Part shown: piece after piece, positions 9,637-36,231 of the stretch
Numbering within the stretch: position 1 is the stretch's first letter
How the letters are laid out: each line of letters opens with the position of its first letter
From: Candidatus Moranbacteria bacterium GW2011_GWF2_35_54
Lineage (GTDB): Bacteria; Patescibacteriota; Minisyncoccia; Moranbacterales; UBA9337
DNA: 37,349 bases
Reading direction: 5' to 3'
NCBI GenBank assembly: GCA_000990945.1
Contig: LBQR01000006.1
Coordinates: 1 to 37,349 of the forward strand
The notes under the pieces: generated by a model
Told to the model about the DNA's origin: nothing
The model's input: only the letters and a program-made list of their open reading frames with translations
The model's database searches: none
Program-made: the position numbers and the translations under genes

Positions 9637-10812
9637 CTACGCCTCACTGATAACATCATAAATACCTGCCTTAGCACTACCCGTAATAGTAAAAGCATAT
9701 ACTTTTTTAGCGATTCCTTGAGAAATAATTTTTTTGGCAGTTTCATTAAGTGTCGCACCAGACCCAGTCACATCATCAATGAGTAAAATATTTTTATATT
9801 TATACTCACTATCAACAATAATTGTTTTTTTTGCATTGATTATTCTATCTTCTGGTTTTTTTAAGCTTTTTTGCTGCACTGGTACAAGATTTTTTACTTT
9901 TGAAATAGAAATGCTTTGGCAAGAAATGTTAAGTCTTTTTGCTAGAAAAGTCATCAGCTGTGTTCTACGTACGACAGTAGGCGGAATAAAACCAATACAC
10001 TCAATATCATATTGTGAAATAATATGATCAATACTTGGCTGTATTTTCTCTATGATATACATCATGACTGTCGTATTCGTATGCCCAGATTTTGCAATAC
10101 GTACCATTTGACTCAAGTATGTTTTTCCAAAAACCGGCAAAGCATCAAAATCCCGATGAAACAATTTTTCCACAAAAACATCTTTGCCAAAAACGTGAGT
10201 CAACTTATCTGTAGCGTCAATCAACATTATATTTGATTTATCATCATAATATTTTTTTCGCGTATCCACATACTCCTGAGCTAGCCTCAAAATATCTTTC
10301 CTATTAGATTTATTCTCTGCCCAATAAATAAATCCTTGCAATCCTAATAATAATTGTCCATCTGGAGTCGTGTAAGCGTAATATTTATTGATAATTGATT
10401 CTTGTTCCTTAGAGAAAATATAATTATTTGTTACATGAGCATAAGTATAAATAATTTTTTGTGGTGGTAAGCCTCTCTTATTAACTACGCCTGCATCGAT
10501 AAATTTCTTAACATATTTTTTTGCGGAAGCTACGCTTACATTCCACGCTTGAGCTAACTCCAAAATTGTTATTTGATCAATATTCTGAAAAATAAAATCA
10601 ATAGCTTGCTCATTTACTGCCAGCTTATATTTCACGCTGACACCACTCTTGGAAGTCATATGCAGGATATTTTCATCAACTAGTTTATGCAACAGCTTGC
10701 CTATACTACTACGCGACAGAACGTTTCCTTTTTCTATATCAGAAATAGCAAAAACTCCATTCTGAGTTAACGTTCTTACGATAATATTTTCTTGATTATT
10801 TGGACTTTTCAT
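9637..10812 (-). CDS. Winged-helix/ComF-like phosphoribosyltransferase fusion regulator
   Basis: A 391-residue two-part protein. The N-terminal ~110 residues contain two helix-turn-helix units (ISDIEKGNVLSRSSIGKLLH, and ITILELAQAWNVSVASAKK). A helical middle part follows (about 150-220). The C-terminal type I phosphoribosyltransferase has the PRPP loop NILLIDDVTGSGATL and ComF-like spacing (IGFIPPTVVRR, QQKSLKKPEDRIINAKK), ending TGSAKAGIYDVISE. By architecture it recalls PurR of Bacillus, in which a PRT domain senses PRPP and the HTH binds DNA, but it is not a close relative. I start it at the ATG at 10812, because TATAAT ends 7 bases before it and the transcript would be leaderless. ATG 10821 and TTG 10848 lie inside the promoter. 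Probable autoregulation through ACTATAGAT sites. Confidence 0.8.
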   Translation of the reverse strand: MKSPNNQENIIVRTLTQNGVFAISDIEKGNVLSRSSIGKLLHKLVDENILHMTSKSGVSVKYKLAVNEQAIDFIFQNIDQITILELAQAWNVSVASAKKYVKKFIDAGVVNKRGLPPQKIIYTYAHVTNNYIFSKEQESIINKYYAYTTPDGQLLLGLQGFIYWAENKSNRKDILRLAQEYVDTRKKYYDDKSNIMLIDATDKLTHVFGKDVFVEKLFHRDFDALPVFGKTYLSQMVRIAKSGHTNTTVMMYIIEKIQPSIDHIISQYDIECIGFIPPTVVRRTQLMTFLAKRLNISCQSISISKVKNLVPVQQKSLKKPEDRIINAKKTIIVDSEYKYKNILLIDDVTGSGATLNETAKKIISQGIAKKVYAFTITGSAKAGIYDVISEA

Positions 10813-10819
10813 AGTAATC

Positions 10820-10848
10820 ATTATACTATAGATTAATTTATAAGTCAA
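10820..10848 (-). promoter_or_regulatory. Near-consensus promoter giving a leaderless mRNA
   Basis: TTGACT (10848-10843), a 17-base spacer and TATAAT (10825-10820) on the minus strand. A start point 7-8 bases downstream falls on the ATG at 10812. The operator-like word ACTATAGAT (10825-10833) overlaps the -10 and the spacer, so a bound protein would block polymerase. Confidence 0.8.
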
Positions 10849-10948
10849 TTGCCTATTTATCCTTTATTTAAAGCTAAATCTATAGTGATTGCTTAACTAT
10901 AGATAATATATTCTAAAAATAGCTGTTTTATCCTTTATTTAAAGCTAA
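10825..10948. promoter_or_regulatory. Operator array: ACTATAGAT sites and 22-bp direct repeats
   Basis: ACTATAGAT occurs at 10825-10833 and 10896-10904. Its exact complement ATCTATAGT lies at 10878-10886, making a perfect 9-bp inverted repeat with a 9-bp spacer. A variant ATTATAGAT lies at 10967-10975. Interleaved with these, a 22-bp sequence beginning TTTATCCTTTATTTAAAG is repeated exactly at 10856-10877 and 10927-10948, 71 bp apart, which is close to seven helical turns. The layout fits cooperative or looping autorepression by the adjacent HTH protein. Confidence 0.7.
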
Positions 10949-11008
10949 TTCCACTATGTTCATTTGATTATAGATTTTTTAGTGATTTTTGTATAATTTT
11001 TAATCAAT

Positions 11009-11596
11009 TCAGACTATTTTTTTAAATTCTATAGACAAATTTTTCAAATCTTTAGACAGCGGATTCTGGGGCCATTTTTCCAATATTATTTTCATCACTT
11101 CCAAATAGTTAGCAATAACTCTTTCTTTTGGTCCGCCAAAACGGCTAAAAGCTTCATCGCCACACACGATAAAGTCATCAATTAATTCAGTTACATTGCT
11201 GATAACATCTGCCGATTTTACCAGAAGTGAATTATGCTTAAATTTTTTGATGTTTTCTCTAGCCTTTGATTTCCTCTCTTCCCAATTTAGCGTTTTATTG
11301 TCCTCACTCACGCTCACTACAATTTGGGCCACTTTTTTTCCAAATCTAGTCGTTATCATTTTTTCATCAACTTTTTTTTCCTTAATGCTATCCTCAATGG
11401 TATCATGAAGGATTCCTGCAATTATCACTTCCTCTCTAGCTCCCGCCATAGCCAAAATTATTCCCACAGTGAGCGGATGCGTTACATAAGCGATGTCTTT
11501 ACCTTTGCGTTTTTGCTTCTGATAAACTTCATGAGTCTTAATTGAAAAACGAATGGCATTTTTAACTCTTAAATTATAGATTAGATTTTTTAACAT
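11009..11596 (-). CDS. HD-domain protein, (p)ppGpp hydrolase-like (RelA/SpoT HD only)
   Basis: A 195-residue stand-alone HD phosphohydrolase. The motifs VTHPLTVGIILAMAG and AGILHDTIEDS match the metal-binding HD region of SpoT/MESH1-type (p)ppGpp 3'-pyrophosphohydrolases, and VKSADVISNVTELIDD is the later conserved D-x-x-x-N helix. No synthetase, TGS or ACT domain is present, so it would act as a small alarmone hydrolase. The substrate could also be another nucleotide. I start at ATG 11596, since the extra 14 residues back to TTG 11638 are translated AT-rich repeat. It is on the same strand as, and upstream of, the HTH-phosphoribosyltransferase gene, but a separate promoter and operator region lies between them. 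Confidence 0.8.
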   Translation of the reverse strand: MLKNLIYNLRVKNAIRFSIKTHEVYQKQKRKGKDIAYVTHPLTVGIILAMAGAREEVIIAGILHDTIEDSIKEKKVDEKMITTRFGKKVAQIVVSVSEDNKTLNWEERKSKARENIKKFKHNSLLVKSADVISNVTELIDDFIVCGDEAFSRFGGPKERVIANYLEVMKIILEKWPQNPLSKDLKNLSIEFKKIV

Positions 11597-11604
11597 AGCG
11601 GAGC

Positions 11605-11760
11605 AATTTTGAATTTCTAATTTTGAATTTTGATTCAATTTCGAATTAATTAATGACTAGATATGACTATGATATAAAATATTTTTAAATCTAAGTTTAT
11701 TTCATTGCTTAATTAAAAATTAAGATTTGATTTAAAATTCAAAATTAGAAATTCAAAATT
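11605..11760. repeat. 27-bp perfect inverted repeat around a 102-bp AT-rich loop
   Basis: 11605-11631 and 11734-11760 are exact reverse complements, made of AATTTTGAATTTCTAATTTT-type words. The composition matches the AT-rich filler family seen at 2062-2149 and 20430-20475. It separates the HD gene from the broken PsbP-like gene and has no open frame. Confidence 0.7.
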
Positions 11761-34879: not shown

Positions 34880-36081
34880 AATAACTGCTTTAATTTATGA
34901 TCAAAGGCTACAGCATCAGAAATTCCACCTAGCATGCCAAGTCTATATTTCTTTTTTAAGTTGTCTCTTTTTTTCAAATCTTCAATCTCTGATAATTTAT
35001 AAACGGTAGAACTAGAGTCCGTTTTTTCCACAATGTAGGCCTGGTCCAACTCAAGCAAATCGAAAGTCTCATGATTATGTGAAGCAAAAAATAATTGTGC
35101 ATTCTTTGCGTTGAATTCTTCGTTCTTAAAAATGGAAAGTAGTGCAAGTTCTACATCATAAATAACAATACCTCCTTTTTTAAAGGCGCTTAAAATATCA
35201 TATATATAAGCAAATAATTCTCTGGTACCTGCTGACTCTTGCATGATATCGATACTCCCCGAGAAATTTTTATGGCTTACTTTAATAGAGATAGCGTTAT
35301 TATCAGTGTTTACCTCTAGGCCATCAATGGAATCATCGAAACAACTCATCATTCCTTTTGTAGTTTCTAAAAATTCCTCTTTTCTATCTTTTGTATAAGA
35401 ATTCAATGTAAGTGCCCTGTTTAGAATTGCTACTTGTGAAGGTATCATAGCATCTAATCCGTCAATCTTAAGAAAAAAAGAATCTCTGTGATTTACAAAA
35501 TCAACCATAGCTTTCGCTCCAATATTAATCAAATGTGAAACAAAGGTCTGGTATTTTTGAATATTTATATTATCTAAATAATTTTTATATTCTTTATACT
35601 CAGGACCAAAACTTATGCCCAATCCCTTTCTCGTGAAAATTTCTTTTGGCTTTGCCGATTTCAAATTAAGAGTAATGAGATACAGACTCTCCTTTATTAT
35701 ATCGTTTCCATTTTTAATTTCTAAATCATATATATAATAGTTATCACCAAATAAAAAATCTATACCTAATTTTGTAGGCTTATCTTTGAAATTTTTGTGC
35801 ACGTTAGGATGGCATAACATAACTCCACCAGCAAAACTTTGAGGTGAAATACTTTGAGGTGAAGACACTGTATACATCATACGGATAAGACCAACCATTG
35901 AGCCCAATATGTTACTCTTACCACTTGCATTTGCGCCAAAAAATCCATTTATTAGTGATATTTTTTCATTCTTTTTGTATGGGAAATATCCCACTTCTTT
36001 TTTTGCGCCTCCCTTTGTGAAATTCAACTCTATTTCTTCACCCACAGAATAAAAATTACCAACTCTTAATTTTGTTATCAT
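34876..36081 (-). CDS. RloA/AAA_15-type ATPase, Walker B region shortened
   Basis: 401 residues of the SMC/ABC-like AAA_15 ATPases. Walker A is GANASGKSN (49-57), the signature-side region IMQESAGTRELFAYIYDIL is followed by FKKGGIVIYDVELALLSIF, and the His switch is in FFASHNHETFDLLELDQ. In relatives the aspartate of the Walker B strand is followed by Glu and then an L-H-P stretch (Y-D-E..L-H-P). Here D is followed directly by VELALLSIF, and about 8-10 residues including the catalytic Glu seem to be missing in frame (about 35150-35157). Strong promoter (36115-36143), no Shine-Dalgarno sequence. The partner is the RloB-like gene. Confidence 0.8.
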   Translation of the reverse strand: MITKLRVGNFYSVGEEIELNFTKGGAKKEVGYFPYKKNEKISLINGFFGANASGKSNILGSMVGLIRMMYTVSSPQSISPQSFAGGVMLCHPNVHKNFKDKPTKLGIDFLFGDNYYIYDLEIKNGNDIIKESLYLITLNLKSAKPKEIFTRKGLGISFGPEYKEYKNYLDNINIQKYQTFVSHLINIGAKAMVDFVNHRDSFFLKIDGLDAMIPSQVAILNRALTLNSYTKDRKEEFLETTKGMMSCFDDSIDGLEVNTDNNAISIKVSHKNFSGSIDIMQESAGTRELFAYIYDILSAFKKGGIVIYDVELALLSIFKNEEFNAKNAQLFFASHNHETFDLLELDQAYIVEKTDSSSTVYKLSEIEDLKKRDNLKKKYRLGMLGGISDAVAFDHKLKQLL

Positions 36082-36114
36082 ATATTATATTTAACAAATT
36101 ATTGTCATATTAAT

Positions 36115-36143
36115 AGTATAATATACACTAAAATAAATGTCAA
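36115..36143 (-). promoter_or_regulatory. Consensus promoter TTGACA-17-TATACT for the RloA/RloB pair
   Basis: On the minus strand: TTGACA (36143-36138), a 17-base spacer, TATACT (36120-36115). The start near 36108 gives a leader of about 27 nt. It is the best -35/-10 match in the window. Confidence 0.85.
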
Positions 36144-36231
36144 GTTTATTTTTTAACACTTTTATGGCATATTTTGTTAATAACGCTGAAATACCTCTAA
36201 CGAAGTAATTCACCTGCAAAATATAAAAACA

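Follow-up and report, generated by a model that had tools for sequence, protein, structure and literature searches.

Three operators at a period of 71 bp precede the gene of a putative phosphoribosyltransferase (PRT)-domain regulator. This array is likely to be a cooperative autoregulatory region of the downstream gene, with the encoded regulator acting over all three phased operators. Sequence comparison supports autoregulation of the gene well, and the array is real, conserved, and probably functional. The gene lies in the 37,349-nt stretch of DNA analyzed here (the window) and encodes two winged helix-turn-helix (wHTH) domains in addition to the PRT domain.

Operator array upstream of the wHTH-PRT gene

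The sequence-only reading of this DNA had described two direct and one inverted perfect copies of the nonamer ACTATAGAT, a degenerate fourth site, and two exact 22-bp repeats, TTTATCCTTTATTTAAAGCTAA, 71 bp apart. All of these elements were located (Table 1); the fourth site, ATTATAGAT, deviates from the nonamer at a single position. The nonamer is not enriched across the 37,349 nt of the window (nine matches with at most one mismatch, 9.3 expected), and four of the nine matches fall inside 151 bp. Beyond that first reading, the nonamers proved to be half-sites of 27-bp dyads with a 9-nt spacer (wTCyATAGT-N9-ACTATrGAw, read towards the HTH gene on the minus strand). The dyads, termed O1, O2, and O3, and the 22-bp repeats between them follow one common period of exactly 71 bp. 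When scored against the clade consensus, O2 matched 18 of 18 positions (rank 1 among the upstream positions), O1 17 of 18 (rank 2 among all upstream positions), and O3 14 of 18 (rank 3). The third dyad consists of the degenerate fourth site and a decayed partner half and is less degraded in most relatives, where it has this offset as well.

Table 1. Coordinates of the operator array, the promoter elements, and the wHTH-PRT gene in the window
Feature	Position	Strand	Remark
Gene for 391-aa tandem wHTH + ComF-like PRT protein, putative autoregulator	9637–10812	-	Weak profile matches and predicted structure
PRT domain, approx. residues 268–391	9640–10011	-	PRPP-loop motif ILLIDDVTGSGAT
wHTH2, residues 67–125	10438–10614	-	Recognition helix approx. 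residues 94–106 (predicted helix)
wHTH1, residues 1–66	10615–10812	-	Extra N-terminal domain, only in the three-operator clade
Operator O1 (proximal)	10807–10833	-	ATCTATAGT-ATAATGATT-ACTATGAAA; over −10 box and start codon
ATG start codon inside O1	10810–10812	-	7 nt after −10 box; layout shared by 10 of 11 genomes
−10 box TATAAT inside O1	10820–10825	-	Read in the sequence
Perfect nonamer ACTATAGAT	10825–10833	+	
−35 box TTGACT	10843–10848	-	17 bp from −10 box; proximal linker only
22-mer TTTATCCTTTATTTAAAGCTAA, copy 1, O2–O1 linker	10856–10877	-	Exact repeat
Perfect nonamer ACTATAGAT	10878–10886	-	
Operator O2	10878–10904	-	ATCTATAGT-TAAGCAATC-ACTATAGAT; perfect dyad (9+9), located 71 bp upstream of O1
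Perfect nonamer ACTATAGAT	10896–10904	+	
22-mer TTTATCCTTTATTTAAAGCTAA, copy 2, O3–O2 linker	10927–10948	-	Exact repeat, 71 bp from copy 1
Operator O3	10949–10975	-	ATCTATAAT-CAAATGAAC-ATAGTGGAA; 142 bp upstream of O1; decayed in the window genome
One-mismatch nonamer copy ATTATAGAT	10967–10975	+	

The sequence-only reading had also placed one site over the −10 box. The nonamer at 10825 meets this box by one base, and the full O1 dyad spans both the −10 box and the ATG. The position of O1 relative to the ATG is the same in 10 of 11 genomes, and nearly all other genomes of the clade have TATAAT or TACAAT at the place of the −10 box. At the −35 position, the proximal linkers of the relatives contain TTGACA, TTTACA, or TTCACA, and none of these was found in the distal linkers. 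Because the −35 motif is restricted to the proximal linker, O2 and O3 do not merely represent additional promoter copies. No ribosome-binding site is present upstream of the ATG, so the message of the wHTH-PRT gene is probably leaderless. A second, short linker palindrome (GCTTwAAwTAAGC, its center 23.5 bp from the operator center) was not significant in a column permutation (p = 0.2) and was discarded.

Conservation of the spacing and proposed mode of action

The conservation of the sites in relatives, which had been suggested as a check, was analyzed in a clade of 11 genomes comprising the window genome and ten genomes with a full-length relative of the protein (37–65% identity). Although these genomes are spread over several Patescibacteria families and orders and the neighboring genes differ, the dyad array is kept in all available members (11/11). 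An absence of the sites from relatives, which would have spoken against the sequence-only reading, was therefore not observed. O1 and O2 are 71 bp apart in every one of them, and the O2–O3 spacing is 71 bp in nine of the ten genomes with complete sequence and 72 bp in the remaining one (L055). In the eleventh (L057), the contig begins inside O3 and the surviving half-site is consistent with 71 bp. The dyads at 0, −71, and −142 (one at −143) are nearly always the top-scoring upstream positions, and none of the 11 genomes contains a fourth unit. Operator pairs spaced by 71 bp are present in all 11 genomes, almost solely at the wHTH-PRT gene. In a class-wide pattern search allowing up to two mismatches, such pairs were detected in 6 of 384 genomes; the reversed pattern, used as a control, likewise matched in six genomes, once each. 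The linkers have kept their length and are on average approximately 49–57% identical within and between genomes (33% for shuffled sequences); in comparisons between genomes, the identity drops to approximately 50–55%. The two linkers of the window are 68% identical to each other, and those of L049 are just 43% identical while the spacing is still exactly 71 bp.

In the proposed mechanism, the tandem wHTH product, presumably a dimer, would bind the three 27-bp operators, whose centers lie 71 bp apart. Occupancy of O1 would keep RNA polymerase from the −10 box and start site, while O2 and O3 at their fixed spacing would raise this occupancy via cooperative binding, DNA looping, or wrapping. Repression would be expected rather than activation, because O1 takes in the start codon as well as the −10 box. 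The fixed spacing indicates that the geometry matters, and the extra domain wHTH1 may help to set it. LacI, GalR, and lambda CI are multi-operator looping repressors with auxiliary operators. The array resembles these systems in the auxiliary operators upstream of a main, promoter-overlapping operator, but differs from them in the unrelated protein family and in an exact 71-bp period kept across genera of uncultured bacteria.

Since the spacing was held while the linkers diverged, looping between the operators is plausible. However, 71 bp correspond to 6.8 turns at 10.5 bp per turn, which is not a whole number, and looping on the same face of the DNA would need overwinding or a twisted assembly. 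For this reason a wrapped or overwound assembly might, speculatively, fit better than a simple same-face loop. The nonintegral number of B-DNA turns could also be taken to mean that the operators are independent and form no loop, with O2 and O3 only raising the local protein concentration or acting as decoys. We regard this as rather unlikely, because the length hardly varies even though the linker sequences have diverged, which points to a role of the geometry; it is a variant of cooperative autoregulation, differing solely in how the sites cooperate.

The tandem wHTH-PRT protein

In the 391-aa protein, two winged HTH domains precede a linker and a PRT-type domain. Its matches to Pfam and NCBIfam models are weak (MarR/HTH, PF00156, and comF), and the AlphaFold2 model has a pLDDT of 79.6. 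The predicted structure matches PRT enzymes, with ComF of Helicobacter pylori (7p0h) as the best PDB fold match, and 48 of 50 family members carry the PRPP-loop motif. No similarity was found between wHTH1 and wHTH2, which speaks against a recent duplication of the latter, and a viral origin of the gene was dismissed after no relatives were found among viral contigs.

In the structure search, ComFC/ComF gave the closest PRT fold, and it is also the best NCBIfam match, although the score of the model TIGR00201 (comF; 32.6 bits) is far under the family cut-off of 233.55. ComFC has an N-terminal zinc finger with four cysteines (PMC9005727); the window protein lacks such a cysteine cluster and has wHTH domains, which are absent in ComFC. 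In its order of an N-terminal wHTH and a C-terminal PRT domain with a PRPP loop, the protein is similar to Bacillus subtilis PurR, apart from the extra wHTH. PurR responds to PRPP as the inducer and ppGpp as the anti-inducer. Its binding sites at promoters, the paired PurBoxes, are 14-bp inverted repeats that contain a central CGAA and are located 16–17 bp apart, and a wrapping of the DNA by PurR oligomers has been proposed (PMC8789054). In contrast to PurR, the window protein has two wHTH domains, a ComF/PsyrT-like PRT domain, putative autoregulation, and three operators at 71-bp intervals that do not resemble PurBoxes, and no link of the gene to purine genes was seen. The PurR family model is also absent among the Pfam and NCBIfam matches of the protein. 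By analogy with Bacillus PurR, a ligand in the PRT pocket would modulate operator binding, and PRPP and nucleotides competing with it, for example ppGpp, would be the most likely first candidates. No report of a tandem wHTH and PRT architecture in Patescibacteria was found in the literature searched, and we could not match the family to any described family that we found.

The gene neighborhood was not conserved. In the window, the wHTH-PRT gene is flanked by genes encoding a nucleotidyltransferase and an HD-domain protein, but no conserved operon partner or neighbor was found across 54 loci of the family. The HD-domain protein (11009–11638, minus strand), which is encoded directly upstream of the array, resembles the SpoT/RelA hydrolase domain (5.5e-15); it is not a conserved neighbor among the loci of the relatives.

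The toxins of the PsyrTA and ShosTA systems are encoded next to a DprA-like antitoxin, and their PRT domains are weakly similar by profile to that of the window protein, in the PRT part only. The gene might therefore encode a self-repressing PRT-type toxin or defense effector related to PsyrT and ShosT. PADLOC matches of the PRT part (PsyrT 2.4e-12, ShosT 3.1e-07), the ShosT structure 8zvc among the fold matches, and the patchy distribution of the gene with its unconserved neighbors point in this direction. We nevertheless consider it improbable: the 54 neighborhoods contain no conserved partner that could serve as an antitoxin, the protein has wHTH domains and no RecQ-like helicase domain, and the architecture is that of a regulator. 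As a side observation, a protein pair resembling an AbiE-like toxin–antitoxin system recurs near three relatives with a single wHTH (L088, L073, and L074).

Sister clade, ancestry of the array, and further copies

A sister clade of 39 relatives (approximately 320–350 aa) lacks the first wHTH domain. Its members occur throughout Patescibacteria as well as in three Bacteroidota-labeled assemblies and a few further candidate phyla. Their operator is one dyad near the ATG, AGTTnnnAGT-N9-ACTnnnAACT, with the same 9-nt spacer as in the three-operator clade. At least nine of the ten arm positions were matched in 30 of 39 upstream regions compared to 2 of 39 control regions, and no convincing second copy was found in any of the 39 members. 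The array clade has two wHTH domains and the sister clade one wHTH domain and one dyad, so the additional domain coincides with the phased array. The members in Chitinophagales-, Chitinophagaceae-, and Bacteroidetes-labeled assemblies (L084, L091, and L097) fall into a single group with support and share their operator type, which points to a transfer between phyla or a binning error.

The sister-clade operators fall into the triplet classes TTAC, TCCT, ATAC, TCAT, and TGAC/TGAT. Mutual information between the operator triplet and 273 protein columns, ranked by permutation z-scores, placed the top three columns in the wHTH recognition helix (z = 7.6, 6.5, and 6.4), and four of the top five lie there (residues 98, 94, 95, and 99 in the window protein). 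Since the remaining columns of these proteins have this phylogeny in common, they served as the control. Among L059–L097 (first 130 bp upstream of the ATG), the helix motifs pair with the triplets as SRQ with TTAC, RAxRK with TCCT, RAxFK with TCAT, and QAxFK with TGAC/TGAT, a possible specificity code. As the operator triplet covaries most with recognition-helix columns, these results give strong, though indirect, in silico support to a binding of the encoded protein to its own operator via the domain equivalent to wHTH2; they were obtained in the single-wHTH sister clade and are carried to the three-operator clade by homology. The multi-site autoregulation proposed in the sequence-only reading is strongly supported by both lines of evidence, the three operators spaced by 71 bp in all 11 genomes and this covariation, although shared ancestry accounts for part of each.

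To our knowledge, transcription regulation in Patescibacteria is almost unstudied, since most members cannot be cultured. Ligand-sensing autorepressors with auxiliary operators are known as such; what is probably new is the variant with three operators at a fixed 71-bp spacing and a protein family that could not be matched to a described one. A wider picture, which we find possible but not quite favored, is a Patescibacteria-wide family of PRT-sensing autorepressors with relatives in Bacteroidota and a readable operator code, in which the central triplet follows the residues of the recognition helix. One clade would have gained a second wHTH and a fixed 3 × 71-bp array forming a nucleoprotein complex of approximately 170 bp over a leaderless promoter, with the start codon as part of the operator. 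Such a domain gain matched to a phased array is a natural experiment on the step from single- to multi-operator cooperative repression, and sequence alone yields the regulator, its operator, the geometry, a candidate second target, and a possible family-wide specificity code that is open to testing in vitro.

The group with three operators and two wHTH domains is monophyletic (support 100/100). With linkers well above the identity of shuffled sequences, the array units descend from an old triplication whose length was held while the sequence drifted, and recent homogenization could contribute to the linker similarity within a genome, such as the 68% in the window. That slippage duplicated promoter DNA in tandem and left upstream copies without function is very unlikely, for although the units are homologous and the window linkers have an exact 22-mer in common, 11 genomes from different families and orders retain three units, with exact spacing even between the dissimilar linkers of L049, and the distal units retain the dyad but not the −35 box.

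The search for further copies in the genome, also suggested earlier, had a divided outcome. In the clade genomes that were searched, a sequence model of the 98-bp array unit recovered the arrays; in the genome of the window it also detected one extra array (G000:C3:35930–36026, E = 1.1e-13) with one perfect and one half-degraded operator 71 bp apart. Single dyads were not enriched across this genome at loose stringency. This extra array could indicate that a different regulator binds the operators and that the downstream gene is merely a target, which is hardly probable given that the arrays track the wHTH-PRT gene in every genome despite unconserved neighbors and that, in the sister clade, covariation links the operator to the recognition helix of the gene product.

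The extra array is located 185 bp upstream of an operon encoding a GHKL ATPase and a DUF4325 protein. Conserved control of this operon was rejected: its orthologues in other genomes have no array, and the copy is therefore either a lineage-specific target or a relic. The GHKL/DUF4325 promoter itself (L112 5700–6150; G000:C3 approx. 35700–36150) contains a dyad, TTTACCGGGAATCCCGGTAAA, with TTGACA. This promoter-like block recurs approximately 300 bp upstream, and the 71-bp array is located between both copies. Two orthologues, L153 and L154, have similar CCGGGA/TTCCCGG dyads in front of the ATG. The GHKL ATPase and DUF4325 proteins (L102 76–1316, minus strand) match the N-terminal part of the PADLOC DrmA model (1e-16 and 6.4e-06), hinting at a common sensor module.
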